Positions 42,217 through 62,817 of a stretch of DNA of 64,000 bases are shown in pieces; the first letter of the stretch is position 1, and every line of letters starts with the position of its first letter. The position numbers and the translations under genes are program-made. Source of the DNA: Perkinsus olseni (lineage: Eukaryota; Perkinsozoa; Perkinsida; Perkinsidae). Where the stretch lies: contig JABANP010000196.1 of assembly GCA_013115135.1 (NCBI GenBank), positions 26,464 to 90,463 on the forward strand. The letters run 5' to 3'. The notes under the pieces are model-generated. The model saw only the letters and a list, made by a program, of their open reading frames with translations. It made no database searches and was not told where the DNA came from.

Positions 42217-42248
42217 CGCTACTTTTAGACATATGTCTAAAAGTAGCG
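42217..42248. repeat. 32-bp perfect palindrome without loop
   Basis: CGCTACTTTTAGACAT followed directly by its reverse complement. Confidence 0.92.
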
Positions 42249-42499
42249 TGGACGAAACGCACATGTACGAAAGGCTTGTACGAAAAGCCCTGGAAGAAAG
42301 AAGCGGAGTTAGAGCATGATTGGACGAAACGGCGTGGATGAAAGAATCATGTACGTAAGACCCGTGGACGAAAGAGACGTGTATGAAAGAGGATGGACGG
42401 AAGTAACATGGACGAAACAAGCAGGATGAACCCTACCATGGATGAAACAATCGTGGACGAAACCTACAATGTATGAAACAGCGATGTATGAATGGAGGT

Positions 42500-45557: not shown

Positions 45558-46994
45558 TCAAACTTTCCTGGACTCGATGATACAGTCAGCCGGAATACGA
45601 TTACGCGTCGAAGAACGAACGAACGACCGAGCTGCACCCGTGTCCAGCAAGGCCTTGATACGAAACGGTTCAGATGCTGATCTCACCGATTTGAATTCTA
45701 CATCAACAGTTAATGGTCTTGAGGAGGAATCTTCTGGCAACCCTTGGATTGGGTCCACACTATTAACAGTCATGAGCCACTTCGGAACCTCATCGTCCAC
45801 ATCCAGATGTTCCTCGTCACCACCCCGTGCCTCAATAGCCGACGCGTCTGCAGGCTTCGGAGGTAGCGAAGAAGAATCAGCCACGGGCTCGGTCTTAGCT
45901 GCCATGGTATTCCGACATATAAACGATACATGGCCCCTCGAATTACAGCGTTTACACGTCAACAACCGGTTACCGCGAAGGCGACAGTTGGCGACCTTAT
46001 GACCCCCTCGACCACAAACCAAACATCGGGAGGCCAATGACGCCGGTGAGCTTGCCGTACAACTATCTGCCAGATGCCCTACTTGGAAGCAGCGACCACA
46101 AGTACCCTTAGGCAACTGTCGCACATCAGGAATATATGGAGCCGTCGGCTTTCCCACCTGGGCAAGAGACATATCTGCCCTTCCTTGGGGAGGGGATTCA
46201 CCACTAACAACAGCTGGAGAGTCACCAGTCTCATCACTGACGCCGTTCACAGCGGACACACTAGCCGAACGACCAGATAACACCACCGAATTAATATCAC
46301 TTAAATTAGCACGAGACTCGATATACGAACGAGCAACGGCCAAATCCATCTTTTCTAATCTATAGGTAAGCGCCGAATCATCAAACGGCGCACGACAGCA
46401 ATGAGTTAATTTGTCCCACACATCATTATCGGACAAAATATCTCCTTGAAGGGCAAGCTCTCCTCCAAGGTGATCCAACTTAACAACAAACTCACGAAAA
46501 GACATCTCTGGGGTCATACGGAGATCATGCCATTGCCTACGCAGACAAGACGCTTCCGACGGATCAAGATACAGGATCAGCAGAGCCGAACGCAACGCTT
46601 GGTATCGCCCACCAAAATGAGCGAAAATATCCCCTCGAATGTCATAGTCATTCTTAGGGCCAAGACGAGCATCTACACGATTACGGACACTCTCACTGAG
46701 ACTGTACAATAGCAGAAAATAACAAGTAGGGGATCCACTGGCTATAGCACAATAGTCCAGAGCTCGATCAAAAGCACTTAAATGAGCACGAATAGATGCA
46801 TGGCTGGTGCTGTCAGGGGATGTCGCCTTTCCATCATAGATACCCAACTTCACTGCAGCTAGCTCCTGACGGGCTTCCTTACGGGCTTCCTGAATCAGAC
46901 GCTGATTGGAACTCCCTCGGGAACGACTCGGGACAATCTCATGCTCCGCCTTCACCACAGTAGCATCACCCTGCCACAACCCGTCCTTCAACAC
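45558..46994 (-). CDS. Element A gag-protease
   Basis: 478 codons. It has a gag capsid-like region (REFVVKLDHLGGELALQGD), then three Cys/His zinc knuckles (CGRCFQVGHLADSC, CLVCGRGGHKVANC, CKRCNSRGHVSFIC), then the aspartic protease active site LLDTGAARSFV. It stops at TGA inside the protease. The next ORF resumes in the same frame four codons later (ATG 45545). Confidence 0.85.
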   Translation of the reverse strand: MLKDGLWQGDATVVKAEHEIVPSRSRGSSNQRLIQEARKEARQELAAVKLGIYDGKATSPDSTSHASIRAHLSAFDRALDYCAIASGSPTCYFLLLYSLSESVRNRVDARLGPKNDYDIRGDIFAHFGGRYQALRSALLILYLDPSEASCLRRQWHDLRMTPEMSFREFVVKLDHLGGELALQGDILSDNDVWDKLTHCCRAPFDDSALTYRLEKMDLAVARSYIESRANLSDINSVVLSGRSASVSAVNGVSDETGDSPAVVSGESPPQGRADMSLAQVGKPTAPYIPDVRQLPKGTCGRCFQVGHLADSCTASSPASLASRCLVCGRGGHKVANCRLRGNRLLTCKRCNSRGHVSFICRNTMAAKTEPVADSSSLPPKPADASAIEARGGDEEHLDVDDEVPKWLMTVNSVDPIQGLPEDSSSRPLTVDVEFKSVRSASEPFRIKALLDTGAARSFVRSSTRNRIPADCIIESRKV

Positions 46995-47009
46995 GCCTTC
47001 CTTGACCCT

Positions 47010-47408
47010 CTAATCTCCGGGCTCCTCCTGAACAACACCCCTCGTCCCCTCCTGCACTGGCCTAACTGCCATAGCATCCACTCTCTCAGCCAAGGCCGAG
47101 ACTTGTGATGTAAGGTAGCTTAACGTGTTCTCAATCGCAGACTGGAGTCCCCCTCTCGCTTCACCACATCCGATACTAGCCTGACGACCTTGAAGTTGAT
47201 CGCCCACACCATCAGTACCCGATCTCATTCTTGGAGGCAAGGACTGAGACCTAACACCTCCAACCTCCTGGAAAGCCAACGATGAACCCAACGAATAGAA
47301 ATCTCCAGAATCATCACTAATCTCGCCCTGCTTAGCCGCCTCTCGGGCCTCATCACGCCGAACACGTCGTTCTCCACGAGCAGTTGATATCGAACTTGAT
47401 TGCTTCAT
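47010..47408 (-). CDS. Element A gag N-terminal ORF
   Basis: 132 codons, charged and partly coiled (RGERRVRRDEAREAAKQGE; IENTLSYLTSQVSALAERVDAM). It ends in TAG (47012-47010) and is in the same frame as the 478-codon gag ORF, whose first ATG is five codons on. It is probably the gag N-terminus separated by a nonsense or readthrough codon. Confidence 0.6.
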   Translation of the reverse strand: MKQSSSISTARGERRVRRDEAREAAKQGEISDDSGDFYSLGSSLAFQEVGGVRSQSLPPRMRSGTDGVGDQLQGRQASIGCGEARGGLQSAIENTLSYLTSQVSALAERVDAMAVRPVQEGTRGVVQEEPGD

Positions 47409-47499
47409 CGATTCTCGGATGATTGTTTGTGCTTGTGGAAAGCCAACTTCAGTAACTCAATTACAGATTACTACTTTGGGAGAACGGTTTCCGATACAG

Positions 47500-47656
47500 G
47501 TTAAGTAACACTGATGCCCTTAGCAGCGACGAACCACGATACCCATAAAAGGAATCATGCGAACAACGGTGCACGGAGCACTGCAATCGATTACGCAATC
47601 GACAGAATTATAGCGCGAGCAACTCTGCAAACTGCACGAACCCTAATGAGGAAACA
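47500..47656 (-). repeat. 5' LTR of element A
   Basis: Identical to the 3' LTR apart from a one-base indel (gcccc/gccc). It adjoins array spacer ggtatgtgaacagc at 47657. Confidence 0.85.
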
Positions 47657-47728
47657 GGTATGTGAACAGCTATTTTCGTGAAGAACTGCTACAGAAAACG
47701 AATTGAACTTATTCTTTGAGGCTCATTC

Positions 47729-47799
47729 GGGTGTGTAGCTCAGTGGGAGAGCGGCTAACTGCAGATCAGCAGGTCCTCGGATCAAATCCGGGCGCGCAC
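47729..47799 (+). tRNA. tRNA-Cys (GCA), unit 1
   Basis: Anticodon loop CTGCAGA. D-loop GGGA and T-loop ATCAAAT deviate from the array consensus, and the 3' acceptor ends CAC. Possibly impaired. Confidence 0.7.
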
Positions 47800-47880
47800 T
47801 TCGTAGTCGGTATGTAAACAGCTACTCTTGTGAAGAACAGCTACAAAAAACGAGATGGACTTATTTTTTGGGGCTCGTTC

Positions 47881-47951
47881 GGGTGTAAAGCTCAGTGGGA
47901 GAGCGGCTAACTGCAGATCAGCAGGTCCTCGGTTCGTATCCGGGCGCGCCC
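47881..47951 (+). tRNA. tRNA-Cys (GCA), unit 2
   Basis: 5' GGGTGTAAAGCTC and D-loop GGGA variants; T-loop TTCGTAT. Confidence 0.75.
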
Positions 47952-48030
47952 TTTGTAGTCGGGGTGAACAGCTATTTTCTCGAAGAACAGCTACAGAAGA
48001 CGAACTGGACTTATTTTTCGCAGCTCATTT

Positions 48031-48101
48031 GGGTGTGTAGCTCAGTGGTAGAGCGGCTGACTGCAGATCAGCAGGTCCTCGGTTCAACTCCGGGCGCGCC
48101 C
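48031..48101 (+). tRNA. tRNA-Cys (GCA), unit 3
   Basis: Near-consensus: acceptor GGGTGTG/CGCGCCC, loop CTGCAGA, T-loop TTCAACT. Confidence 0.88.
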
Positions 48102-48182
48102 TTCGTAGTCGGTATGTGAACAGCTATTTTCGTGAAGAACAGCTACAGAAAACGAATTGAACTTATTCTTTGAGGCTCATTC

Positions 48183-48253
48183 GGGTGTGTAGCTCAGTGG
48201 TAGAGCGGCTGACTGGAGATTAGCAGGTCCTCGGATCAAATCCGGGCGCGCAC
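48183..48253 (+). tRNA. tRNA-Cys-derived, anticodon GGA, unit 4
   Basis: The loop reads CTGGAGA (anticodon 48215-48217 GGA, a Ser anticodon) in an otherwise Cys-type body. The T-loop also differs (ATCAAAT). Probably a pseudogene or an altered-specificity tRNA. Confidence 0.6.
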
Positions 48254-48334
48254 TTCGTAGTCGGTATGTGAACAGCTATTTTCGTGAAGAACAGCTACAA
48301 AAAACGAGATGGACTTATTTTTTGGGGCTCGTTC

Positions 48335-48405
48335 GGGTGTAAAGCTCAGTGGGAGAGCGGCTAACTGCAGAGCAGCAGGTCCTCGGTTCGTATCCGGGCG
48401 CGCCT
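48335..48405 (+). tRNA. tRNA-Cys (GCA), unit 5
   Basis: GGGTGTAAAGCTC subtype like unit 2. Anticodon-stem 3' side GCAGC. Confidence 0.72.
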
Positions 48406-48484
48406 TTTGTAGTCGGTGTGAACAGCTATTTTCTCGAAGAACAGCTACAGAAGACGAACTGGACTTATTTTTCGTAGCTCATTC

Positions 48485-48555
48485 GGGTGTGTAGCTCAGT
48501 GGTAGAGCGGCTAACTGCAGATCAGCAGGTCCTCGGTTCAAATCCGGGCGTGCCC
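48485..48555 (+). tRNA. tRNA-Cys (GCA), unit 6
   Basis: Near-consensus; 3' acceptor CGTGCCC. Confidence 0.88.
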
Positions 48556-48636
48556 TTCGTAGTCGGTATGTGAACAGCTATTTTCGTGAAGAACAGCTAC
48601 AGAAAACGAACTGGACTTATTCTTCGTGGCTTATTC

Positions 48637-48707
48637 GGGTGTGTAGCTCAGTGGTAGAGCGGCTGACTGCAGACCAGCAGATCCTCGATTCAAATCCGGG
48701 CGCGCCC
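48637..48707 (+). tRNA. tRNA-Cys (GCA), unit 7
   Basis: Anticodon-stem 3' side CCAGC; T-stem CTCGA. It is the closest relative of unit 14, which differs at the anticodon. Confidence 0.82.
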
Positions 48708-48788
48708 TTCGTAGTCGGTATGCGAACAGCTACTTTCGTGAAGAAAGGCTACAAAAAACGAGATGGACTTATTTTTTGGGGCTCGTTC

Positions 48789-48859
48789 GGGTGTGAAGCT
48801 CAGTGGTAGAGCGGCTCAGTGCAGATCAGCAGGTCCTCGGTTCAAATCCGGGCGCGCCC
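48789..48859 (+). tRNA. tRNA-Cys (GCA), unit 8
   Basis: GGGTGTGAAGCTC; loop GTGCAGA (position 32 changed). Confidence 0.78.
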
Positions 48860-48940
48860 TTCGTAGTCGGTATGTGAACAGCTATTTTCGTGAAGAACAG
48901 CTACAGAAAACGAACTGGACTTATTCTTCAAGGCTCATTC

Positions 48941-49011
48941 GGGTGTGTAGCTCAGTGGTAGAGCGGCTGACTGCAGATCAGCAGGTCCTCGGTTCAAATG
49001 CGGGAGTGCCC
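48941..49011 (+). tRNA. tRNA-Cys (GCA), unit 9
   Basis: T-arm 3' side altered (TTCAAATGCGGG) and acceptor AGTGCCC, so pairing is weakened. Confidence 0.72.
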
Positions 49012-49093
49012 TTCGTAGTCGGTATGTGAACAGCTACTTTCGTGAAGAACGGCTACAGAAGACGAATTGGACAATATTTTTCGTAGCTCGTTC

Positions 49094-49163
49094 TGGTGTG
49101 AGCTCAGTGGTAGAGCGGCTGACTGCAGATCAGAAGGTCCTCGGTTCAAATTCGGGCGCGCCC
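49094..49163 (+). tRNA. tRNA-Cys (GCA), unit 10
   Basis: 70-nt variant TGGTGTGAGCTC, lacking one base between the acceptor and D stems. Confidence 0.65.
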
Positions 49164-49245
49164 TTCGTAGTTGGTATGTGAACAGCTATTTTCGTGAAGA
49201 ACAGCTACAAAAAACGAATTGGACAATATTTTTCGTACCTCGTTC

Positions 49246-49315
49246 TGGTGTGAGCTCAGTGGTAGAGCGGCTGACTGCAGATCAGAAGGTCCTCGGTTCA
49301 AATCCGGGCGCGCAC
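49246..49315 (+). tRNA. tRNA-Cys (GCA), unit 11
   Basis: Same 70-nt subtype as unit 10; 3' end CGCGCAC. Confidence 0.62.
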
Positions 49316-49355
49316 TTCGTAGTCGGTATGTGAACAGCTATTTTCGTGAAGAACA

Positions 49356-49760
49356 GTGAAACTCGGCCAACACGGGAGTGTGGGATTGGCATCACTCTGT
49401 GTGATAGCTGTGGCCGAAGCGGCTACTAACTTCGCACAGAGAGATGTATGTGTGCGGGGATTGATTACGCTTAGCGGTTGTGCTAAGACGTCTCACCGCT
49501 TGCACACATCTCCCGGGCTGGGAGGGAAGAGTTCATCTTTCACACCAATAGATATACCGCAGCTCTAGTGAGAGCCACAGTGGCCACTATGCGTAGCCTG
49601 CTACTATTGTTCTAGTTGAAGCAGTGAATCCTATCCGTGCGTTCGGCATCTGCACGTAAGTATCTTATGTGCTGCGCGTAGAGCGTGTGCGTACATTGTG
49701 TAGCGAGCGCACTCCCTTTGTCCCCGTATTTCACTGACGTAACACTACGCGTACTTACAA
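49356..49760. mobile_element. ~400-bp insertion in a tRNA spacer, possible solo LTR
   Basis: It interrupts the spacer between gaagaacag and ctacaaaaaacg, which are adjacent in other units. It starts TGAAAC and ends near CTTACA, so TG...CA ends are possible, but no target-site duplication is seen. It matches none of the other LTRs in the window. No coding content recognised. Confidence 0.5.
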
Positions 49761-49950: not shown

Positions 49951-50006
49951 GGGTGTGTAGCTCAGTGGTAGAGCGGCTAACTGCAGATCAGCAGGTCCTC
50001 GGTTCA
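49951..50006 (+). pseudogene. tRNA-Cys unit 13, 5' part, split by element B
   Basis: Normal body up to GGTTCA of the T-arm. The LTR of element B begins at 50007. The 3' remainder (gttcaaatccgggcgtgccc) is at 56250-56269. GTTCA (50002-50006 and 56250-56254) is the target-site duplication. Confidence 0.93.
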
Positions 50007-50189
50007 TGTTGAGATTATAGATAACGCAACATAACTTGAGCCAAGATGGCTACTTTAGTAACCGACCTCTCCTCTAGAACCTCTGATAATAAGTGCCTCT
50101 GTAAACCTCTAATGACAATAGCTGACGGCAAGACTGCACTATCTTGCACTCTTGCTATTCCTCTACAATCAATATATAAATACTCAACA
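50007..50189 (-). repeat. 3' LTR of element B
   Basis: Sense TATA-like TATTTATATATTG near its 5' end. Spliced-leader match at 50035-50053 (19 nt), preceded in sense by TACTAAA. Confidence 0.93.
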
Positions 50190-50211
50190 TCTCGGCCCCC
50201 CAAGGTGGCGG

Positions 50212-53200
50212 CTATAGAGCAGACACTTTCCTAGAAGATTCGACAGAAAGCTGAGTAGGGCTCTCCAGCTTGAGAACGGAGACTCCCTTAGGGTTGACAG
50301 CAACAGTAGCGGGAATCTCTGGGGGACCTCCAACTCTTAATATACCATCGGGAGTGAAGTACATCGGTACGACAGTTCGATGGTCCTCTAACAGCTTATA
50401 TTCATGGACAAGAAAGAAATTATCATTGGTCCATGATATCTTACTACCAACCCTCACCGTACCATCTTCATCTTTCCATGCTAAGAAAGGATGACCAGAA
50501 GACACAATTCGCACTTTCCTCTTTGGTGGAAGGTCTTCAGTGGTAGGTGGAGATGATAGATCTCTCCTCTTATGACCTCTTGAAGTGGGTGTCGGCACAC
50601 GATCTTCTTCTTCTGATATATAAAAAGGCTTAATGTGATCCTTATGAAAGACTTGTCGTGTACCATCCGAAAGCTGTACTTCATAACACTGCCCACCGAT
50701 AGGATTCATAATGGTACCTCTTATCCATTGTGAATCTAACTTATGTTGGGGCTTACGATATATGTAGACCGATTCTCCTCGAACATAATGTTCTCGGACC
50801 TCTGGGCCTTTACTCTTCTCTCTCGATCTCGTCCACGCGTCAGACCAAACACTCAACAACTGTCGACGATGACGATCTAATCGAGATACCTCTGAGAGTA
50901 CAGCTGACGTTCTAATCTTATTAGGATACGAAATAAATGACACAATATTCTCATGGGTAAGCGGCTCCCGCAGAACTTGACTACGTAATGACACATCAAA
51001 AGGGAGCCTCAACTTAAACCCGAAGAGAATCTCATGCGGAGAGATGCCGAGCTCCGGATCCGGCACGGAGTTCAGGCGGCCTTCCGCAATAGCTAATAAA
51101 TCGACCCAAGAAGCTCTCTGACGACTCTTGAGTAAACGGCGTAATGATTCCCCAATTGTTCTATGCTGGCGTTCATAGAACCCCCCCGATGGCGGATGGG
51201 CAACGGGTAATACTATATGACGAGCAGAGTATAAACAACAAAGGGCATCAAATCTGGGAGACAGAGTAAACTGCCGTCCCTGATCACTTATAAAGGTAGA
51301 TGGAGTTCCAAACCTCAGCAGAACTTGTGTTTCTATTACTCTGCATATCGTATTAGTACTTATATCTGCCAGCGGGAACAAAAGGGTGAAACGACTTAAT
51401 AAATCTGTACACGTCAACACCCACCTCTCTCCCTTAGAACTGGGGAGTAGCGGCCCTACTATATCGAGCCCCAAAACTTCGAAAGGCTCGCTAGGGGTCC
51501 ATAGATGGGCCTCATGCTGACGCTTAAGAAAAGAAGCTGACACTTGACAAGGATGACAGCTTCGAATGACCGACTTGACATCGGCTCGACTACGTGGCCA
51601 CCAGAATAAACGACGTAAATAGCGATGAGTAGAATTCACCGCCGGATGACCTCTAAGATCATGATAATATTTAATCAACTCAACTGGTAGCCGCGAATAT
51701 TTCGACTTCGGCAATACTATCCTAACATCATCTTCATCATCAACGGGATCCTTTTTACATAGGACATCATTATGAAGGAAGGCGTTCTCACCATAATAGA
51801 CGACTGCTGGAGCGACCGAACGTTTCTTCTTCGACGGATCGGCTCCTTCTTCTAGTAGATGACGCACTTCACTACATAGGGGATCCTTCTCCTGCTCTCT
51901 AATCAAGAACCTTCTTATCAGCTCATGCTTCGGAGTAGCTGAATCTCCTTTCCAAGCATGAAAAGTCTTATCAAGATCGTAATAGGTTTTCAGAGATGGT
52001 ACATTCTCGAGAGTAGGTAGTAGTAAAGAGTGAGGGTAGTAGAGATCAAAAACCTCAAAGGCCAACAACGGGGCCTCACTATCATCAATGGCGACTGTTA
52101 GGTCTATAGCAGTTAGAGGCACGTCACGACTAGCGTGAATACTCAGAAGCTCTCGAGAAAAGGGAATATCATCAATAATTCTTGATAAGATGTCAACTCG
52201 TTTAGTAAAGAATGAAGTGTTGGGATGATGAATGAATAATACTGAAATGCTCATCGTCTTCAACTCTGCTATGATATCGTCCGTGCAATCACGGATCCGA
52301 CGAGTGGCCAACCACTCAATCCCCTTCAACTTCCTCTCAGGTCCTCCCATTCTTCTGATCGCTGTGAATGAATCACTTCCCAGCACTATCGTTCGCAAAG
52401 ATCTCCACCAATTCCTCTCGAATTGTTGACATAAGGCCGTCAAACTCTGAAGAATTGCGAACATTTCCCGGCGATTCGCATGCCAGGCCTCGGCGCGATC
52501 AGGGAATAGGTGGGCTTCTCCATAGATAGATACCCATTCCTCTCTCTCCTCTTCTCCTCCCCCCTCTCTGGAGCGAAAAGCTCCATATAATTCCCTTGCT
52601 GGTGCCCAGAATTCTATCCCATATCCCCTTGATGAAGCATCAGTAAATAGTCGAACGGTTTTCACTCCCGATATCAACGGGACCCTCTGATCAATCTGTT
52701 GCCATAAATCTTCAGCTGCTTTCAGATGAAGATTGCATTTATCCCTCACATCTTTCGGTAAAATACCGTCCCAAGAATTCTCTGCTCGACCCGATAGCTG
52801 TCGAACAATATCACAGTGTCCTCTACACTGTGCCTCTGCTGAGCTTTTGGTCAGCTCCAGAAATTTGCCAGCGTTGGCAAAATAGCCTCTTTTAGATTCG
52901 ATGCTCTCATCAATCTTGATTTCTGGGCGATCGACAAATAAGTTCCCCTTGGCACTATCCCATCTCCACTTCACTCCTAACCACTTCTGCGGAGAATCCT
53001 TCTCCCACATACTGCGCTTCGAGTCGGGAACCTCGAAGCCGCATTTCGCTAACAGCTGGAACATATCCGCGTTCCATGCCTGCCTCTCTTCCTCATTCCG
53101 GGAGAGGATGAGGAAGTCATCCATAATTCTCACCGTTTGGATATGGGGGTGTTTATATCTAAGAACGGTGAACAGTATATCTACCACTCCTTCTAAGGAG

Positions 53201-54507
53201 GCTGGACCAGACGATAGTCCAAACGCTAATCGCCTCGTCATCTTCAAAGTCATATCTCCGCAATCGATCAGTAATCCGCGGCCGATAGCAAGGCGATAAT
53301 ACGCCTTACTCAAATCCATCTGCTCCACTCTCCACGCTGGTTGTAATAATCCCTGCAACTGCTGAATCGCACAGTGCGTTGAATTCCTCCGATTGTGAAC
53401 TGATGGGTACTGCCGATTTATTACTCGGCAATCGAGACATGGCCGCACTGGGGTGGTAACTTTCCTGAGAGATACCACAGGAAAGCAGGTGGCAAATTGG
53501 GTACAGCTCTCTTTATCCGGTACGGGAATCCCAGTGTCCACCCACCAATGACGATTGAAATACATACATAATTCCTCCTGCCATTTTATGCGTTCCGCAT
53601 TCGACAAACGTTGAATCAATCCCGTCGGACGCCAGCTACCTCTGATGTCATAGTCTCTTTCCAATTCCCTCTTCTTCTCAACCTTTTCCGGCCAATCGAT
53701 ATAAAATCTATACTGCTGCTGTGGGATATCCGGAACTGCTGCATCATGCCCTTCTTCGTGTTCCAATTCTTCCAATGTCTTGAGCTGCACAGTATACTCA
53801 AGAGCATTAGGAAGAGGAAAGGGGCCATGATCATGAATGCGAGAGAGCGTTGTAGCATAAAAATCTGCCTCGGGAGGAATATCCACCAATATTTTCTCAA
53901 CCTGCTCTTCCAATGCGGTTGTACTATTCCCTCTCAAAGGTAAATTCGCCGACTGAGGCTCCTCTTTTCTGATAATATCATCTTCTAAATTTTTGACGCA
54001 TTCCTCTTCCTCTGAGCAACTAACCTCTATCTGCGCGATATCAATAACTGGTACATCTAATGATGGCGCTCCCTTCTCTTTTACATACTGTGTAGGACTA
54101 GGTCGCTCCACTATCTCTTCTTTCAATGAAGATTGAATCTTACTCGCCTCATCATCATCTAATGAATATAATAATTTCGCACCAACTATACGTAATGCGA
54201 CTCGACCCAGTATGATAGGATAGCTCAAATCCTTAACCACCAGCGCTGGGATATAGAAGCTGGCACGACCCTCTGAACCCCGAGATAATGATACTTGAAG
54301 GATACATTCCTCATTAACGGTTCGCGATGTATGATTCGCACACGTAATAATCACTGGTTTAATCTTCCGACGTTCGATAATCCCCTCTTGATGTAGTCGG
54401 GATGCCAGTTCTTCGCGAATCATCGCGACCGCTGCGCCAGAGTCCACCAACGCACAAACATCCAGATTTCCGATACGTAAAGATACCGTATCCGGCCCCG
54501 TCATCAT
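50212..54507 (-). CDS. Element B pol: protease, RT, RNase H, integrase
   Basis: 1431 codons, one uninterrupted frame. Aspartic protease CALVDSGAAVAMI lies near residue 20. RT has RPCLDCRVINRQYPS, QMDLSKAYYRL, AFGLSSGPASLEG and catalytic RIMDDFLIL. RNase H begins VRLFTDASSRGYGIEF. The integrase zinc finger is HDLRGHPAVNSTHRYL...CHPCQ, and its core D-D-E is in LGLDIVGPL, FISDQGRQF and GGFYERQHRT. The C-terminus has the gypsy-type GESVYIYRK...SQWIRGTI...YEVQLSDGTRQVFHKDHIKPFY. It is expressed by a +1 shift from gag or by internal initiation (pol ATG 54507). Confidence 0.93.
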   Translation of the reverse strand: MMTGPDTVSLRIGNLDVCALVDSGAAVAMIREELASRLHQEGIIERRKIKPVIITCANHTSRTVNEECILQVSLSRGSEGRASFYIPALVVKDLSYPIILGRVALRIVGAKLLYSLDDDEASKIQSSLKEEIVERPSPTQYVKEKGAPSLDVPVIDIAQIEVSCSEEEECVKNLEDDIIRKEEPQSANLPLRGNSTTALEEQVEKILVDIPPEADFYATTLSRIHDHGPFPLPNALEYTVQLKTLEELEHEEGHDAAVPDIPQQQYRFYIDWPEKVEKKRELERDYDIRGSWRPTGLIQRLSNAERIKWQEELCMYFNRHWWVDTGIPVPDKESCTQFATCFPVVSLRKVTTPVRPCLDCRVINRQYPSVHNRRNSTHCAIQQLQGLLQPAWRVEQMDLSKAYYRLAIGRGLLIDCGDMTLKMTRRLAFGLSSGPASLEGVVDILFTVLRYKHPHIQTVRIMDDFLILSRNEEERQAWNADMFQLLAKCGFEVPDSKRSMWEKDSPQKWLGVKWRWDSAKGNLFVDRPEIKIDESIESKRGYFANAGKFLELTKSSAEAQCRGHCDIVRQLSGRAENSWDGILPKDVRDKCNLHLKAAEDLWQQIDQRVPLISGVKTVRLFTDASSRGYGIEFWAPARELYGAFRSREGGGEEEREEWVSIYGEAHLFPDRAEAWHANRREMFAILQSLTALCQQFERNWWRSLRTIVLGSDSFTAIRRMGGPERKLKGIEWLATRRIRDCTDDIIAELKTMSISVLFIHHPNTSFFTKRVDILSRIIDDIPFSRELLSIHASRDVPLTAIDLTVAIDDSEAPLLAFEVFDLYYPHSLLLPTLENVPSLKTYYDLDKTFHAWKGDSATPKHELIRRFLIREQEKDPLCSEVRHLLEEGADPSKKKRSVAPAVVYYGENAFLHNDVLCKKDPVDDEDDVRIVLPKSKYSRLPVELIKYYHDLRGHPAVNSTHRYLRRLFWWPRSRADVKSVIRSCHPCQVSASFLKRQHEAHLWTPSEPFEVLGLDIVGPLLPSSKGERWVLTCTDLLSRFTLLFPLADISTNTICRVIETQVLLRFGTPSTFISDQGRQFTLSPRFDALCCLYSARHIVLPVAHPPSGGFYERQHRTIGESLRRLLKSRQRASWVDLLAIAEGRLNSVPDPELGISPHEILFGFKLRLPFDVSLRSQVLREPLTHENIVSFISYPNKIRTSAVLSEVSRLDRHRRQLLSVWSDAWTRSREKSKGPEVREHYVRGESVYIYRKPQHKLDSQWIRGTIMNPIGGQCYEVQLSDGTRQVFHKDHIKPFYISEEEDRVPTPTSRGHKRRDLSSPPTTEDLPPKRKVRIVSSGHPFLAWKDEDGTVRVGSKISWTNDNFFLVHEYKLLEDHRTVVPMYFTPDGILRVGGPPEIPATVAVNPKGVSVLKLESPTQLSVESSRKVSAL

Positions 54508-56062
54508 TTTCAGTGACCACGACTCTTTTCAACACTTCATTCTCAGCCCCCGCGAAATTTTGCTCAACACAAGTCAGGTCAACCACACAAGATAACGGAT
54601 CCGACGAACTTCGCGCACCCTGAGTGGCCCCGGTGGTTGCATCACTAGTTGAGGTCTTCGACTGCGAAGTGCAGCCCACCTCAATAGTGTATGCGGAAGC
54701 CCTCTTAGGTAAACCACCTTTACCGGCGCTTGAAGCTCGATCCGTACCCTGTGGCCTCTGACCTGAAATGAGCGGGGAAGGACATACATACTGTAAGTGA
54801 CCTTGCTGAGAACATCTCCTACATCTCACCGTAGGAGAAATTGCACAATCTGCCAGTCGATGCCTGAGTCCGCAGCGAGGACATCTCTGGGCCATATCTC
54901 CCGGCTTTTCACTCCTGCAATAACGCCAAGAATGTCCGGGCTGTAGGCACCTACTGCAAGTGCCCGTGAAGGACGATACTGCTGATTTTCCCTTACCAGC
55001 AGCAGCCCTCTTCGGTGCCAAATCCGGCGAACTTTTGGCCTCCCATCGATTTTTCCCAGAGCTCAGCTGTGACTCGAAATGCATAGCTTCCCCTCGCAAT
55101 TCTTTATACGACATACGATCGACCGCCTTCCCCAGGCTCTCTATAGCTTTCGATAATTTCGGTAACAACCCCATTCTCGCTCTTACACACTTCTCCAATT
55201 CCAAATGCTGCTTACCGAATACCGAACATAATAAACTTGACTCCTTATCGATACGGACGAAGTAGTCTTCCACCCGTTCATCTTCTTTCTGTGCCAAGCG
55301 TTCCCAACGCAATAATGCTTCCCCTTTATTAAATGTGCCGGAAAATCTATCATCGAGATATTCCCAAACTCTCATCACGATATCCGAACTCGATAACCCT
55401 TCTGATAACTTCTCTCTTATCATGACATTAATGTCATCTCTAAGCGGCCCCGAGAAATTCCGAAGTAAATAATAAAGTTCCGGCTCCCCTTTCAGATGAT
55501 AAATAGCGATCGAGTCAACAACTTTCTGCTTAAATATCTCATACGGCAATTCCGCCGTGGGTCGAGACCACGGAGCCCCCAACACCAAGTCCAACTTATT
55601 CCAATCGATCATATTTTTATTTCCAGAGCCACCACCATCAGTACCACCACCATCATCTGCGCTATCCACTTTCTGTCCCAAAAATAACTCTAAAGCCTTT
55701 TTCAAATCCTCATGACGATCCCGATGCCACTCAACCCCTGATGACCGAGCAGAGGCTGTCGCCTGCTTGGCTAAATATTTCCCAAGGAAGCGAACCCATT
55801 CCTCTGTCAGACCCTCTACTTGGGCGGCATCAAGAATAGCCCCATATATTACCCGTGCCCTCTCTTCAACTCCAGATATCTCCCCTTTTGATATCCATCG
55901 TTGAACCTTGGCCCGGATAATTGATACCTCTCGATTGAAGGCTCCTCTTTTCTCAACTTCCAGGTAGAGATGCTGCATCTCCAAGCTGAGAGCCATACCT
56001 GGGATCGGCGCTATCACGGCATCTCCGAAGACGGCGTCGGCGAATCCTGCATCGGGTACCAT
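54359..56062 (-). CDS. Element B gag
   Basis: 567 codons, ATG 56062-56060, only one base after the 5' LTR boundary. Capsid-like helices (FSGTFNKGEALLRWERLAQKEDERVEDYFVRIDK) precede three zinc knuckles (CSRCLQPGHSWRYC, CPRCGLRHRLADC, CRRCSQQGHLQYVC) and a Ser/Thr-rich linker. It ends 149 nt inside the pol frame, so pol needs a +1 frameshift somewhere in 54361-54507. Confidence 0.9.
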   Translation of the reverse strand: MVPDAGFADAVFGDAVIAPIPGMALSLEMQHLYLEVEKRGAFNREVSIIRAKVQRWISKGEISGVEERARVIYGAILDAAQVEGLTEEWVRFLGKYLAKQATASARSSGVEWHRDRHEDLKKALELFLGQKVDSADDGGGTDGGGSGNKNMIDWNKLDLVLGAPWSRPTAELPYEIFKQKVVDSIAIYHLKGEPELYYLLRNFSGPLRDDINVMIREKLSEGLSSSDIVMRVWEYLDDRFSGTFNKGEALLRWERLAQKEDERVEDYFVRIDKESSLLCSVFGKQHLELEKCVRARMGLLPKLSKAIESLGKAVDRMSYKELRGEAMHFESQLSSGKNRWEAKSSPDLAPKRAAAGKGKSAVSSFTGTCSRCLQPGHSWRYCRSEKPGDMAQRCPRCGLRHRLADCAISPTVRCRRCSQQGHLQYVCPSPLISGQRPQGTDRASSAGKGGLPKRASAYTIEVGCTSQSKTSTSDATTGATQGARSSSDPLSCVVDLTCVEQNFAGAENEVLKRVVVTENDDGAGYGIFTYRKSGCLCVGGLWRSGRDDSRRTGIPTTSRGDYRTSED

Positions 56063-56063
56063 T

Positions 56064-56249
56064 TGTTGAGATTATAGATAACGCAACATGATAACTTGAG
56101 CCAAGATGGCTACGTTAGTAACCGACCTCTCCTCTAGAACCTCTGATAATAAGTGCCTCTGTAAACCTCTAATGACAATAGCTGACGGCAAGACTGCACT
56201 ATCTTGCACTCTTGCTATTCCTCTACGATCAATATATAAATACTCAACA
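56064..56249 (-). repeat. 5' LTR of element B
   Basis: Carries a 20-nt spliced-leader match at 56095-56114 (sense CGTAGCCATCTTGGCTCAAG), with a TACTAAC box at 56114-56120 just upstream in sense. Confidence 0.93.
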
Positions 56250-56269
56250 GTTCAAATCCGGGCGTGCCC
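56250..56269 (+). pseudogene. tRNA-Cys unit 13, 3' part
   Basis: gttcaaatccgggcgtgccc, the T-loop to acceptor end displaced 6.2 kb from its 5' half by element B. Confidence 0.92.
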
Positions 56270-56350
56270 TTCGTAGTCGGTATGTGAACAGCTATTTTCG
56301 TGAAGAACAGCTACAGAAAACGAACTGGACTTATTCTTCGTGGCTTATTC

Positions 56351-56421
56351 GGGTGTGTAGCTCAGTGGTAGAGCGGCTGACTTCAGACCAGCAGATCCTC
56401 GATTCAAATCCGGGCGCGCCC
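56351..56421 (+). tRNA. tRNA-Cys-derived with anticodon UCA (UGA-reading), unit 14
   Basis: The body is identical in type to unit 7, but the loop reads CTTCAGA (anticodon 56383-56385 TCA). All stems otherwise match unit 7, including the weak T-stem CTCGA. If charged by CysRS it would insert Cys at UGA. CysRS normally needs the GCA anticodon, so this is uncertain. Confidence 0.65.
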
Positions 56422-56467
56422 TTCGTAGTCGGTATGCGAACAGCTATTTTCGTGAAGAAAGGCTACA

Positions 56468-56738
56468 AGTGGAGTGCAAAGTCTAGGCTAGTAAAGTATG
56501 TTCCACTTAAGCCATTTGGCCGCGTGGTTAACTTGTATACTTGCGAACCGAAAGACCCCGGGTTCAATCCCCAGGTCTGACTGATGCGCTATACTGTCTC
56601 CGGCTACAGCTGATAAAGCCAATAATCGATCAAGCTAAATTAGCTGTAACACCATTGATTGTGCTACTGAAACGGTTAACTCAGTAATCTAAAGATTTCT
56701 TGTATTTCCTTATGTCCTCTCCCGCTTTGCGTTCAATT
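56468..56738 (+). repeat. 5' LTR of element C, with tRNA-like A and B boxes
   Basis: It contains TGGCCGCGTGGTTAAC (A-box-like, 56517-56532) and GGGTTCAATCC (B box, 56560-56570) about 34 bp apart, and a tRNA-like 3' end. The acceptor stem does not pair. The gag start codon lies inside this LTR. Confidence 0.9.
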
Positions 56739-59700
56739 GGTGCCCAGACTCCTGGCTCTTCGAGTGAGAGTTCTGGTAGCGCGAGTGCACCTCGCGCACA
56801 CCAACTTCGCCCTCTCTCTGATTTCTACAGTGAAGACGAAGATGACGTCAGAGACGTCAGCATTGACCTCGATCACGATGATGACGAGGCATTGCTTCCA
56901 CTGGACGATGAGTTCGCTCATCGCAGTGATAGTGAGTTGGATGATAGAGATCCTTCTCAACACAAGGTTGGTGATACCCCTCACCAAGAGGGTGGTACTC
57001 CTCCTCAGAAAGGTAAAGCGCCTGAAAAGCGTAAGGTGGTTTTGGATGATACCAAGCCATCGCCTCTAGCCGGGACTTCCAAAGCTCGGCGGATGATCGA
57101 ACTTCGTAAGAACGCCGTCAAGTTCAGCGGTGGTGCCGACGAAGATGTTGAAGAATGGTTGGACAAGCTGGATATGATTGCCGGTCCTGAAGGTTTTAAC
57201 CTTGACTACTATGACCAGGCTGTGCTCCTCAAGTTATCGGTGTCTGGTCCGGCGTATCAGGCTGCCAAGATGGTCCCGTGTGAGCAGAAGTCCATCGATC
57301 CTTCCAGGAAACGGTACTTGGCCCGGCTACGATCCGAACTACGAAAGCGGTTTGGTTCGAGCCCTGACAAGGCTGTTGCCAGCTTGAGAAGTGTCAGCTT
57401 CAACGACTACACATCGGTTGATGAGTATGCTACTGCTGTGAGTCGCCTAGTGCGACAGAGCTTCGGCAATATTCACAACAGATGCCAGGGTGAGATTATG
57501 AAGCTGTTCTTCTACAGTGGTCTACCACACGATCATCCAGCAAGCTCTGCCATCAAGCCGTTCTGCCTTGACCCTACCAAGTCTTATGAGCAAATCATTA
57601 CTCGCGCGAGGCTATCATTTGATAACCTCAGTCAACCGCGAGTAGCCGCACCTGGTGTGCGAAGATTTGACTTTAAGTCTGGCAAGGGTAAGGGTGGTAA
57701 AGGCGGTAAAGGCAAGGGAAAGAGAAGCCGTGAAGGAGGCCAATCGGTGAAGCGCTGTGAGTTTTGTAATAAGACCAATCACACGATTGAAACGTGTAGA
57801 TTCCTTGCTAAAGCAAGAATGGCCTTGAAGGTAAGCAACCTTGGGGAGCGGTTTCACGTATTAGATTCTCCGATGCCGCTGTTGCTTCAGACTGAGTATA
57901 ATCTCATTTGCCTTGTCGATTCAGGATCAAGTGACTCAATCATAACTCGATCGGCATTGAGCAAGGTTGGTAGAGGTTGTAGTTCAGTTGAAGATCACCA
58001 GGTTGCATTATCGACCATTAAAGGTCCTCAGTTGTGTACCATCGCAAAGATCCCTGCTACTGTGTTGAGTTGTAACAATGATATACGGAACACCATGCCT
58101 GTATTAGTCGTTGATGCAGATCACATAGAACACGTGGGTGACTATAGAGTTGATATAATTCTAGGATGCGATTGGATAGCGATGCACTCTCCTGTAGTAT
58201 TCGAGAGCACGCATTACACTGAGCCTATAATAGCCGCTTCACCGGCATTAGCCTCTGGCGCAGATTCTCAGATTAGAATCGATGAACAAACTGGGAACAG
58301 AATCACAGCTACTATTGATGAACCTGATTTCATTGCTCGTAGACTGACTGATGGTGATGGTAAATCTGTTTGGCAAGTGGAATGGAAGTGGATTGATAAT
58401 AAAGCTCCTCCAGGAGTATTCCGTCCTCCCACTTATGAAAAGCAGATGGAGTCACTGAGTCAATCACAGTTAGATACATGGCAAACGGAAATCAAAAATT
58501 GGGAATCTCAAGGCTTCATACAAGAGGTCAAAAGATCTGATTTGAAGGGAACATTGACTTTAATGGGAGTCGCGCAAGAACACAAAATCACAACTCCTTG
58601 CCGTCCTGTTATAGACTTTAAGCCTCTAAATAATCAGATCCATTCATATCCCAATTCGGATGACCATGTTACCGTCGACGATACATTACGCCGATGGAGA
58701 GCGAACTATACACGTGATGGTAAATCGATAGATAGCTGGGTATTGATAGATATAAAGAAAGCATACCTTTGCGTACGCATGAGCCCTAAATGCGCGGCAT
58801 ATCAAGGCCTCATCATAAGAGATGAGAAAGGATCAACAAGATACATGCGATTGGATCGCTTAGGATTTGGCATTAATATTGCTCCAAAAGTACTGAGAAG
58901 TATCATAAGATATATTCTCTGCGAGGAAGGTCTCGAAAGCCCGATAGATATGTTCGTAGATGATATGCGAGTACCAACTGAGCATGTAGATCAGTTGCGC
59001 GAAGCATTACATAGGAACGGGTTTCCAACAAAAGACCCAGAGAGCAGTAGCTCAGCACGGATTTTAGGATTACAAATGACTGGTGCGAATAGATGGAAAC
59101 GACGAAGTGATATCCAGCCCATTGCTGGCTTCACCTATCGTGATCTTCGTTCGTGGGTGGCCACGATAGCATCATCTCATTATCCTGTCCTAGGATGGCT
59201 CTCGCCAGCAGCCAGAGCGCTGGAGAGACTGAGTGTTATTGCCAATCCGAGCGCAACTTCGGCCGATCCTTTGCCTGATGACATTGTGACGAAAGCACAT
59301 AAATTGTACTCAGACATTGTACTACGAGGAGATCCAGCTACTGGATTCTTCCGAGTAGATCCCTCGCAGCCATGGTCTGTGTACACAGATGCTTCGGCGG
59401 ACGCAATCGGTGCATGCTTATATTTTGGGTCGCAATTAGTCGAAGATAAATCTTGGCTACGAGCCACGAAAGACATTCGGCCTATCGATACAGTAGAGTT
59501 AGAAGCAGGCTTGAGAGGTCTGAACGACCTAACGGTTCCTTGGATAAGAGCCTTAGGAATTAAAACTGGTCTTGCACTTACAGTGTATGTCGATAACAAG
59601 CCAGTCCTAGGCCAACTTTCAAGGAAGAAACTCAGCCATTGGGTTGCATCCAAGGGTCTTGCATCAGGTGCAGCGGAGGTTAGGCTACAAATGATAGACG

Positions 59701-60905
59701 ACCTCGTACAGCTGTATAAAATAGACATAACGTTCAGATACATAGCCAGTGGTGAGAACCCTGCGGATGAACGATCACGAATACCTGATTATCTAAAATG
59801 GCCCAAACCATCAAGGCGTGAGTTGAAAGCGAAGCCTGAGTCTCATACTTTAGCAGCAGCTACTCGTTCCCATGAATGGCAGGACGTGAGTACGTGTGAG
59901 AATGGCTATCTGATTATCCCACCTGGTCACGTGAAACAATTTGTAGAAGATAATCACGACCATGAAGGTGCAGAAGCTCTATATCAAAGACTTCGCAAAT
60001 GGGTGAAATCAGAACCAGGGTTCCGAGCAATATGCCGAGAGGTTGTTGCTCAGTGTGACGTTTGTAAACGTGCCAAGGCACATCCGAACCAGAACACGGA
60101 TGGACTAGATCCTGAGACAGGAAAGAAGAGGAAACGTGATGACGTCGAAAAACGTGCAACACGCAAGTCTTTCATTCCATTCAATAAAGTCCATATTGAT
60201 GTAGTCGGAAACTACAGAGTTGTTTCTGGTAAGAAGTCATTCTTCGTCGTCACACTAGTGGATAGTGCCACTGGATATGCTCTGGGCAAGGCCACGAAAT
60301 CGGCGCCCGTGGGTGAAGACATAGAGGTTCTATTGAGCCATATGTTAGAGACCTTTCACACAACCCCTTTGGTTGTCTGGTCTGACTCCGGTGCGAATCT
60401 GGTTTCGAAACGAGTTGAGGCATTTCTGTTGAAACATGATATTTTACATTACACGACTGCGAAGAATACTTCGCTGAGTAATGGAGAAGTAGAAAGGTTT
60501 CATAGAACACTCAACGAGTACCTCCGTACTCATGCCTCCCACGATGAAATTGGCTGGCCTGAATTCACCAGACTAGTCAAAAAGGGAGTGACGAAGTATA
60601 ATACAACCCCTTACCATGGCGTGTCTGCGCATGAGAAGGTATTTAGGTTTTCACCTAACTGTGAACCTTACCGTCCAGTGCAGTCACGCGACGAGTGGGG
60701 TGAACTTTGTCACGAAAACAAAGAAGAATGGGGACGAGGACTGGAACCCGGTACTTGTGTATTTTACCGGAATCCCAGACCGTCGAATAAACTCTCCGAT
60801 CGCTGGCTGGATGCAGTGATTGAAGAACGAGTTGGCCCCAAGGCGTACAAGCTAGAAGGCCTGCCCGGCAAGTTCGACTTGAAGGATATTAAGCTGCTTA
60901 AGTGA
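56712..60905 (+). CDS. Element C gag-pol polyprotein
   Basis: About 1400 codons without interruption. I prefer ATG 56712 (MSSPALRSIGAQ); an in-frame ATG also exists at 56700. Both are in the LTR. Acidic N-terminus; gag capsid region (VEEWLDKLDMIAG...SVDEYATAVSRLVRQSF); Gly/Lys-rich linker; one zinc knuckle CEFCNKTNHTIETC. Protease CLVDSGSSDSI; RT with RPVIDFKPLNNQ, VLIDIKKAYLCV and catalytic FVDDMR; RNase H VYTDASADAIGACLY. Integrase has CDVCKR, then core residues in HIDVVGNYR, VWSDSGANLVS and SNGEVERFHRTL. A C-terminal SDRWLDAVIEERVGPKAYKLEG module follows. TGA is at 60903-60905. Coding capacity looks complete. Confidence 0.93.
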   Translation: MSSPALRSIGAQTPGSSSESSGSASAPRAHQLRPLSDFYSEDEDDVRDVSIDLDHDDDEALLPLDDEFAHRSDSELDDRDPSQHKVGDTPHQEGGTPPQKGKAPEKRKVVLDDTKPSPLAGTSKARRMIELRKNAVKFSGGADEDVEEWLDKLDMIAGPEGFNLDYYDQAVLLKLSVSGPAYQAAKMVPCEQKSIDPSRKRYLARLRSELRKRFGSSPDKAVASLRSVSFNDYTSVDEYATAVSRLVRQSFGNIHNRCQGEIMKLFFYSGLPHDHPASSAIKPFCLDPTKSYEQIITRARLSFDNLSQPRVAAPGVRRFDFKSGKGKGGKGGKGKGKRSREGGQSVKRCEFCNKTNHTIETCRFLAKARMALKVSNLGERFHVLDSPMPLLLQTEYNLICLVDSGSSDSIITRSALSKVGRGCSSVEDHQVALSTIKGPQLCTIAKIPATVLSCNNDIRNTMPVLVVDADHIEHVGDYRVDIILGCDWIAMHSPVVFESTHYTEPIIAASPALASGADSQIRIDEQTGNRITATIDEPDFIARRLTDGDGKSVWQVEWKWIDNKAPPGVFRPPTYEKQMESLSQSQLDTWQTEIKNWESQGFIQEVKRSDLKGTLTLMGVAQEHKITTPCRPVIDFKPLNNQIHSYPNSDDHVTVDDTLRRWRANYTRDGKSIDSWVLIDIKKAYLCVRMSPKCAAYQGLIIRDEKGSTRYMRLDRLGFGINIAPKVLRSIIRYILCEEGLESPIDMFVDDMRVPTEHVDQLREALHRNGFPTKDPESSSSARILGLQMTGANRWKRRSDIQPIAGFTYRDLRSWVATIASSHYPVLGWLSPAARALERLSVIANPSATSADPLPDDIVTKAHKLYSDIVLRGDPATGFFRVDPSQPWSVYTDASADAIGACLYFGSQLVEDKSWLRATKDIRPIDTVELEAGLRGLNDLTVPWIRALGIKTGLALTVYVDNKPVLGQLSRKKLSHWVASKGLASGAAEVRLQMIDDLVQLYKIDITFRYIASGENPADERSRIPDYLKWPKPSRRELKAKPESHTLAAATRSHEWQDVSTCENGYLIIPPGHVKQFVEDNHDHEGAEALYQRLRKWVKSEPGFRAICREVVAQCDVCKRAKAHPNQNTDGLDPETGKKRKRDDVEKRATRKSFIPFNKVHIDVVGNYRVVSGKKSFFVVTLVDSATGYALGKATKSAPVGEDIEVLLSHMLETFHTTPLVVWSDSGANLVSKRVEAFLLKHDILHYTTAKNTSLSNGEVERFHRTLNEYLRTHASHDEIGWPEFTRLVKKGVTKYNTTPYHGVSAHEKVFRFSPNCEPYRPVQSRDEWGELCHENKEEWGRGLEPGTCVFYRNPRPSNKLSDRWLDAVIEERVGPKAYKLEGLPGKFDLKDIKLLK

Positions 60906-60922
60906 AGAGAGAGAAGGGGACG

Positions 60923-61193
60923 AGTGGAGTGCAAAGTCTAGGCTAGTAAACTATGTTCCACTTAAGCCATTTGGCCGCGTGGTTAACTTGTATACTTGCG
61001 AACCGAAAGACCCCGGGTTCAATCCCCAGGTCTGACTGATGCGCTATACTGTCTCCGGCTACAGCTGATAAAGCCAATAATCGATCAAGCTAAATTAGCT
61101 GTAACACCATTGATTGTACTACTGAAACGGTTAACTCAGTAATCTAAAGATTTCTTGTATTTCCTTATGTCCTCTCCCGCTTTGCGTTCAATT
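60923..61193 (+). repeat. 3' LTR of element C
   Basis: Two substitutions against the 5' LTR (aagtatg/aactatg and tgtgcta/tgtacta). Confidence 0.93.
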
Positions 61194-61233
61194 CTACAAA
61201 AAACGAGATGGACTTATTTTTTGGGGCTCGTTC

Positions 61234-61304
61234 GGGTGTGAAGCTCAGTGGTAGAGCGGCTAAGTGCAGATCAGCAGGTCCTCGGTTCAAATCCGGGCGC
61301 GCCC
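61234..61304 (+). tRNA. tRNA-Cys (GCA), unit 15
   Basis: Unit 8 subtype; anticodon-stem 5' side CTAAG. Confidence 0.78.
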
Positions 61305-61385
61305 TTCGTAGTCGGTATGTGAACAGCTATTTTCGTGAAGAACAGCTACAGAAAACGAACTGGACTTATTCTTCAAGGCTCATTC

Positions 61386-61456
61386 GGGTGTGTAGCTCAG
61401 TGGTAGAGCGGCTGACTGCAGATCAGCAGGTCCTCGGTTCAAATGCGGGAGTGCCC
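61386..61456 (+). tRNA. tRNA-Cys (GCA), unit 16
   Basis: Same as unit 9, including TTCAAATGCGGG. Confidence 0.72.
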
Positions 61457-61538
61457 TTCGTAGTCGGTATGTGAACAGCTACTTTCGTGAAGAACGGCTA
61501 CAGAAAACGAATTGGACAATATTTTTCGTAGCTCGTTC

Positions 61539-61608
61539 TGGTGTGAGCTCAGTGGTAGAGCGGCTGACTGCAGATCAGAAGGTCCTCGGTTCAAATTCGG
61601 GCGCGCCC
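61539..61608 (+). tRNA. tRNA-Cys (GCA), unit 17
   Basis: Same 70-nt subtype as unit 10. Confidence 0.65.
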
Positions 61609-61690
61609 TTCGTAGTTGGTATGTGAACAGCTATTTTCGTGAAGAACAGCTACAAAAAACGAATTGGACAATATTTTTCGTAGCTCGTTC

Positions 61691-61760
61691 TGGTGTGAGC
61701 TCAGTGGTAGAGCGGCTGACTGCAGATCAGAAGGTCCTCGGTTCAAATCCGGGCGCGCCC
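61691..61760 (+). tRNA. tRNA-Cys (GCA), unit 18
   Basis: 70-nt subtype, with acceptor end CGCGCCC intact. Confidence 0.68.
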
Positions 61761-61841
61761 TTCGTAGTTGGTATGTGAACAGCTATTTTCGTGAAGAACA
61801 GCTACAGAAAACGAATTGAACTCATTCTTTGAGGCTCATTC

Positions 61842-61912
61842 GGGTGTGTAGCTCAGTGGTAGAGCGGCTGACTGCAGTTCAGCAGGTCCTCGGTTCAAAT
61901 CCGGGCGTGCCC
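61842..61912 (+). tRNA. tRNA-Cys (GCA), unit 19
   Basis: Near-consensus; CTGCAGTTCAGC in the anticodon arm. Confidence 0.8.
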
Positions 61913-61994
61913 TTCGTAGTCGGTATGTGAACAGCTACTTTTGTGAAGAACAGCTACAGAAAACGAATTGGACAATATTTTTTGTAGCTCGTTC

Positions 61995-62064
61995 TGGTGT
62001 GAGCTCAGTGGTAGAGCGGCTGACTGCAGATCAGAAGGTCCTCGGTTCAAATCCGGGCGCGCCC
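61995..62064 (+). tRNA. tRNA-Cys (GCA), unit 20
   Basis: 70-nt subtype. Confidence 0.68.
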
Positions 62065-62145
62065 TTCGTAGTTGGTATGTGAACAGCTATTTTCATGAAG
62101 AACAGCTACAAAAAACGAGATGGATTTATATTTTGGGGCTCGTTC

Positions 62146-62216
62146 GGGTGTGAAGCTCAGTGGTAGAGCGGCTGACTGTAGATCAGCAAGTCCTCGGTTC
62201 AACTCCGGGTGCGCCC
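62146..62216 (+). tRNA. tRNA-Cys-derived with anticodon GTA, unit 21
   Basis: Loop CTGTAGA (anticodon 62178-62180 GTA, a Tyr anticodon) in a Cys-type body; 3' acceptor GTGCGCCC. Confidence 0.6.
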
Positions 62217-62297
62217 TTCATAGTCGGTATGTGAACAGCTATTTTCGTGAAGAACAGCTACAGAAAACGAGATGGACTTATTCTTCATGGCTCATTC

Positions 62298-62346
62298 GGG
62301 TGTGTAGCTCAGTGGTAGAGCGGCTGACTGCAGATCAGCAGGTCCT
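62298..62346 (+). pseudogene. tRNA-Cys, unit 22, 3'-truncated
   Basis: Consensus body up to AGGTCCT, then unrelated sequence; the T-arm and 3' acceptor are missing. It marks the right end of the array. Confidence 0.85.
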
Positions 62347-62817
62347 TAGCTTCCGATGGTAACCTCCGATCCGGCCGAACCCTCCATCTTTTGAAGTGTG
62401 CAATGCACACTGTGCATTTCCCGGGAAGCGTCAGAACATTGTACTCATTGAGCACCCGGCTTTGGAACTACCAGTAGATTAGCTGTGCGACCGCTCGAGG
62501 TTTCCTTGAATCGACTTTCTGGTCTACTCGCCTGAGGCGAGTCACCTCTTAGTCTCGTAGGTGGTCCATTACCAGATTTGGATCAGAAAGAGGGATAACG
62601 CCTGTCGTTATCCGATGAGCGAAGAGAACAAATATGATACTTCTGCAATTAAAAACATATCGACCTTGAAAGCGGCATCGTTTTGGGAGATTAATACGGG
62701 CTATAGTCATGTCGGCTTTCGCTCTCGCTCGCCACGCCTAAGCTGTGGAGAAGTTAAGATTGAGGATGAGCGTTGCATTGCCTGGTGATCGTGCTGCCAG
62801 GATTCCGGTGACTGAGA
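62347..62817. other. Region without a recognised gene
   Basis: Short frame plus 62561-62788 without motif; hairpins CACTGTGCA near 62408 and CGCCTGAGGCG near 62530. Confidence 0.4.

Follow-up and report, generated by a model that had tools for sequence, protein, structure and literature searches.

Element B is a retrotransposon with long terminal repeats (LTRs) on the minus strand (positions 50007–56249) of a 64,000-nt stretch of Perkinsus olseni DNA (contig JABANP010000196.1, positions 26,464–90,463; this whole stretch is here called the window), and each of its two LTRs carries an exact copy of the core of the host's spliced leader (SL), GTAGCCATCTTGGCTCAAG. Judged from the sequences, the leader occupies the same site in the LTRs of several element families, the base at its 5' edge is a substitution hotspot, and in one cross-species case the leader type follows that of the host. 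A host that replaces the 5' ends of its mRNAs by trans-splicing could deprive an LTR element of the identity between RNA 5' and 3' ends that strand transfer needs. If the reading developed below is true, an LTR-encoded leader restores this terminal identity, and the LTRs hold a record of host leader variants.

Leader copies in element B and in the genome

The first-pass annotation of the window had placed the leader core in sense in both LTRs, and this was borne out: exact 19-mers lie on the minus strand at 56095–56113 in the 5' LTR and at 50035–50053 in the 3' LTR, the 20-nt form that had been given fits the 5' LTR only, and the gag and pol frames of B are read on the minus strand, as the leader is. 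In the 5' LTR the core ends 31 nt before the LTR end and is the proposed start of the R region. The base directly before the core is C at 56114 (5' LTR) and A at 50054 (3' LTR), a position that is a hotspot across copies. The branch-point-like TACTAAC (56114–56120, minus strand) and its 3' LTR counterpart TACTAAA (50060–50054) are directly upstream, at the positions claimed. With up to three mismatches allowed, GTAGCCATCTTGGCTCAAG occurs in the window at these two places only (expected 0.00 from 100 shuffles). It is followed in B by TTATC or TTATG, with no GT donor and no SL RNA intron, and neither LTR is among the 38 genomic matches to leader plus SL intron, so that neither is an SL RNA gene. 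Nor do the LTRs have the tandem relic cut after nucleotide 7 that marks retrogenes with DinoSL relics; each contains a single full core.

Genome-wide, the exact 19-mer was found 120 times and the reversed pattern not at all, about 36 of the 120 being SL RNA genes. All 38 places that match leader plus SL intron (at most three mismatches) start with ACC, and in C270 genes for U2, U4 and U5 adjoin SL RNA genes. A separate SL RNA gene array (G000:C268:208046-235714) has the exon variants CTCGAG, GCCGTC (twice) and ATCGCGG. We read 101 distinct leader sites, some with up to four mismatches; 87 were exact, including 11 SL RNA genes, and about eight further exact sites other than SL RNA genes lay outside the set read. 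With SL RNA genes set aside, 76 exact sites remain, 69 in 12 multi-copy groups, according to our own grouping, and seven singles. Paired leader-bearing LTRs, the 3' one preceded by a G-rich tract, are present in seven groups (F1, the family of B, and F2, F4, C438, C156, C249 and C450); here the leader begins 92–268 nt from the LTR start, and 31–91 nt separate its end from that of the LTR. Five-base target site duplications (TSDs) were seen for B, for C621 in F2 and for C450, and three shared bases only for C156 and C249; in the same comparison the 3' flank was unreadable for C438, C584 and C206. In F8, an integrase lies about 1.15 kb upstream of the leader.

The reverse transcriptase (RT)-like pieces suggest that the groups include at least two very distant lineages and that the leader trait is not confined to one of them. 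Those of C249 and C584 are 33% alike (E 1e-13) and match B only marginally (E 0.04 and 0.02); they were recognized by eye from the motifs YMDD and YVDD and from the match between the two pieces, a Pfam search giving no RT match for either. The C249 piece has four database relatives, all P. olseni and P. chesapeaki proteins. A search with RVT_1 between leader pairs (150 of 421 candidates scored) gave no match and is uninformative, since it also missed the RT of B itself.

Three further kinds of leader site were noted. Single leaders lie about 3.0, 3.8 and 0.6 kb upstream of same-strand RT matches (G000:C267:26018, C667:68436 and C810:3877), and these loci may be non-LTR elements whose 5' end carries a leader. 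A second leader (L014, G000:C289:5953-5971), set in other sequence, lies at a distance of 67 nt from that of a B-family LTR. In L074/L075 (C156) and L097 (C445) part of the leader is repeated after it (GCTCAAG and CCATCT, respectively), resembling a partial tandem relic.

The 5' edge and possible renewal of the leader

If the border between U3 and R falls at the start of the leader, the base directly before it (position -1) is predicted to be a hotspot of change. This base, which precedes GTAG, is C in 9, A in 2, G in 1 and T in 1 of 13 F1 copies, and T in 11 and C in 4 of 15 F2 copies, closely related LTRs in both cases. Across 30 columns, position -1 accounts for 3 of 6 state changes in F1 (p 0.0008) and for 4 of 7 in F1 and F2 together (p 4e-5). 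With 43 copies from five chosen groups, F3, F8, F9 and small groups being left out, the share is 6 of 17 (binomial p about 1e-5), values that assume uniform columns and independent copies, the latter violated by related copies. The two LTRs of B differ at -1, and those of the C289 pair at -2 and -1, among six substitutions and one indel. These data support the view that the leader's 5' edge behaves as an RNA 5' end. A copy in C602 (L111/L112, group F9) was considered as one that starts exactly at the leader and was rejected, the first 73 bases of its 5' flank recurring at C741 (twice), C482, C432 and C580; the repeated flank stops about ten bases before the leader, and with its boundary unclear it was not used as evidence for an RNA 5' end. 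F9 elements (L111/L112 and L103/L104, the latter in C482) have a short terminal repeat that begins at the leader, and the sequence upstream differs between their ends.

Relatives of the B LTR were collected as 28 matches to the whole LTR, and identities were taken from that search because those from gap-tolerant U3 alignments are inflated. In the ten closest, nine that are at least 89% identical across almost the full LTR and one partial match (98%), the leader is intact at 19 of 19 positions. The three weakest of the 28 are F2 copies, again with an exact leader, and between F1 and F2 LTRs the leader is exact in spite of strongly different U3 sequences. An informal comparison points to a substitution rate in young copies that is lower in the leader than in U3. 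Three old B-family pairs (L020/L023, L024/L028 and L030/L031) were set aside as cases of transposition with a mutated leader, homology continuing past both LTR sides; they are probably segmental duplicates, and so probably are L016/L017, two of the ten intact-leader copies.

The strongest evidence for renewal comes from a comparison with P. marinus, whose leaders are reported in PMC3101222 to be of a 22-nt and a 21-nt type. Genomic leader sequences that lack a recognizable intron are given there as more than 60 for the first type and more than 40 for the second, and most of them start with T. Three primer tracts given there have counterparts in our groups: the L1-like tract matches C446 at 47 of 49 positions, the L2-like tract matches F6 at 28 of 28, and the S-like tract corresponds to C470/C597. 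Outside the leader, the last alignment scores 43, compared with a maximum of 34 in 500 shuffles; the leader type differs, being 21-nt in the P. marinus tract and 22-nt in the P. olseni group. Three smaller observations point the same way, and each of them could be due to chance. This genome has a single leader of the 21-nt type, complete with its ACC; it lies in an F4 LTR, and the other seven F4 sites read are 22-nt. CTCGAG replaces CTCAAG at five places, namely one SL RNA gene, three F3 copies and one B-like copy. In F6 the leader is followed by GTCTCAG and TGTAC, and in the related C438 pair directly by TGTAC, as though a leader had become fused at the following AG. Taken together, the cross-species leader type, the loss between leader and next AG and the variant common to LTRs and an SL RNA gene suggest that the leader is rewritten rather than inherited.

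Proposed mechanism and its alternatives

We propose that the host spliced leader forms the first part of R in several Perkinsus LTR retrotransposon lineages. Transcription of the element would begin upstream, in U3, and the host SL RNA would be trans-spliced onto the AG that ends the LTR's copy of the leader, giving a mature RNA that consists of leader, U5 and gag. Reverse transcription primed at the adjacent primer site would copy U5 and the leader, the leader complement would anneal to the leader that the RNA carries in its 3' LTR and so effect first-strand transfer, and both new LTRs would thereby gain the host's current leader. We lean towards this sequence of events, with trans-splicing at the encoded leader's own AG, then reverse transcription, then strand transfer mediated by the leader. 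For the broader proposal, in which the host's trans-spliced exon serves as R in several LTR lineages, a fresh leader is drawn from the SL RNA pool in each cycle, and a terminal homology supplied by the host tracks host leader evolution, we regard the case as evenly balanced. The first-pass annotation had likewise suggested a self-regenerating R: leaders in the LTRs of several families, a 5' edge like that of an RNA and a sequence that tracks the host leader repertoire support it in part, and we infer the remainder, namely that element RNA is trans-spliced, that the acceptor is the leader's terminal AG and that the leader takes part in strand transfer.

Several observations weigh against this proposal. 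Some concern the acceptor. TACTAAC just upstream of the leader is, in the contexts read, limited to B's family and its old relatives; the acceptor AG itself is present. The leader also contains an earlier AG (GTAG), and in one copy (L097 in C445) the CCATCT that follows the leader gives the impression of past use of this earlier AG. With primers for three types of the intron-lacking P. marinus leader sequences, 3' rapid amplification of cDNA ends (RACE) and RNA blots yielded no clear product (PMC3101222). Others concern the start of the leader: ACC begins only 3 of the 76 exact sites other than SL RNA genes (C63, C470 and C597), T is first in 51 of the 76, and 31 start with TCC. The rarity of ACC in LTR leaders, compared with its presence in 38 of 38 SL RNA genes, implies that the first three nucleotides are not faithfully renewed. 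For the alga Polarella, PMC7245778 reports that some 70% of the long reads of leader type begin at one of the double cytosines at positions 2 and 8, for which the authors raise a possible link with methylation; stalling of reverse transcriptase at cap-proximal bases may leave the first three positions poorly renewed.

A further set bears on renewal and on distribution. Among the 15 remaining B-like matches, one has the leader intact at 19 of 19, 13 retain 7–18 of these bases and one is truncated at a contig end; dead copies drift. Exact young copies with drifting old ones fit renewal and selection alike. No 21-nt SL RNA gene was found in this genome, the single 21-nt F4 copy could stem from a chance deletion of one nucleotide, and a deletion at a microhomology could account for the AG-to-AG loss between F6 and C438. 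In the second B-family pair (C289, F1) the flanks do not match. The window's other two LTR elements (about 40475–47656 and 56459–61193) have no leader at up to three mismatches, and of 150 integrase matches scored (from 316 candidates) 136 have no nearby leader and 14 have one. This comparison drew on a list of 108 leader sites, 11 of which carry one mismatch, and took as near those on the same strand from 8 kb before to 5 kb after. Leader-bearing LTRs are not universal among the LTR elements of this genome.

The main rival, which we consider unlikely, is that an LTR promoter starts transcription at a leader that mimics the host's, for translation or stability, and that selection keeps this leader without any trans-splicing. 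Both this explanation and trans-splicing put the leader at the start of R, and what a promoter start predicts likewise includes a leader where U3 meets R, the hotspot at -1 and a gag ATG that follows the leader at a short distance. Also in its favour, most LTR leaders do not begin with the ACC of SL RNA genes. However, it needs a parallel change in the P. marinus family to that host's 21-nt type (PMC3101222) and recurrent variants equal to the SL RNA gene variant, and it does not predict the AG-to-AG loss. It is improbable that the leader was captured once from a copied trans-spliced RNA and has since been carried along without function. SL relics in retroposed complementary DNAs (cDNAs) are well known in dinoflagellates (PMC3229502 and PMC12014239), and old copies do drift, but the leader is found in 12 groups, those with very distant RT-like pieces included, and does not differ between the LTRs of F1 and F2, strongly divergent though these are in U3. 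That the LTRs are donors or decoys that pass their leader to other RNAs, as the splice-donor-like GT after the leader in F6, F8 and F9 might suggest, is very improbable given the TT and lack of an SL RNA intron after B's leader and the published RACE in P. marinus, which found no such donor RNA (PMC3101222).

Structure of element B and comparison with known systems

Alignment of the two ends of element B defines a 5' LTR of 186 nt (56064–56249) and a 3' LTR of 183 nt (50007–50189), both on the minus strand with TGTTGA...TCAACA ends, and the element is flanked by the 5-bp TSD GTTCA at 50002–50006, in the T-arm-like part of a tRNA-Cys repeat, and at 56250–56254. Three differences separate the LTRs: U3 has one substitution, the nucleotide immediately preceding the leader core is not the same, and a 3-nt indel lies 2 nt beyond the core. 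An A+T-rich TATTTATATA near the LTR start (56233–56242, minus strand) is a possible upstream promoter. On the minus strand, the open gag frame (54359–56071) has a zinc knuckle match below the cut-off, and the open pol frame (50212–54528) has matches over the cut-off to RT (RVT_1, residues 426–520), H2C2 (950–997) and integrase (rve, 1013–1107) and a protease match below it. The closest protein relative of B's pol is FOZ61_000145 from P. olseni (96% identity over 65% of the part searched). A polypurine tract with GGGGGG (50196–50201, minus strand) precedes the 3' LTR, and a primer-binding-site-like stretch that starts with TGG, TGGTACCCGATG (56050–56061, minus strand), lies two bases past the end of the 5' LTR and overlaps the gag ATG (56062–56060). 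The same stretch adjoins the LTRs of F2 copies, including the overlap with the gag start codon.

Around element B, an array of 152-bp tRNA-Cys repeats (47537–49472, 56279–56578 and 61194–62405) has three LTR elements beside or within it. In the neighbouring plus-strand element (LTRs 56459–56738 and 60914–61193) the LTR contains a tRNA-like stretch with a B-box-like GGGTTCAATCCCC, identified by eye, and a 1405-aa frame starts within the 5' LTR. The minus-strand LTR element at 40475–47656, with no leader, has a Pao-type peptidase match (PF05380). Beyond this genome, viral contigs scanned for the Perkinsus core gave no match; in one viral contig (IMGVR_UViG_3300045993_001077, L131 2746-2913) two dinoflagellate leader copies lie immediately ahead of an open frame, an arrangement that resembles a captured trans-spliced cDNA.

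Element B, compared by domain order and by the names and domains of its hits, has in common with Ty3/Gypsy-type LTR retrotransposons its LTRs, polypurine tract, TSD and an RT upstream of the integrase. Unlike these, its R is proposed to open with the host's trans-spliced leader, and its primer-binding-site-like stretch overlaps the gag ATG. Non-LTR elements of trypanosomes and nematodes that are specific for SL sites insert into SL RNA genes; they share with B a link between retroelement and spliced leader, which in B belongs to the element itself. A literature search of titles and abstracts, with most subscription journals outside it, found no description of a spliced leader inside LTRs.

The DinoSL relics of dinoflagellate recycled cDNAs (Slamovits and Keeling 2008, as described in PMC3229502) are tandem, cut after nucleotide 7 and located in host genes. 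There, as proposed for B, a leader enters the genome through reverse transcription of a trans-spliced RNA, whereas B has a single uncut core inside both LTRs of a mobile element. Closest to our case are the SL-like genomic sequences of P. marinus, with the same leader, no SL RNA intron, variable downstream sequence and three tracts matched here; PMC3101222 reports that they are not functional SL RNA genes, and they are not described as LTRs in the sections consulted. If the host leader does open R in these lineages, the SL-like sequences of Perkinsus genomes would be explained.
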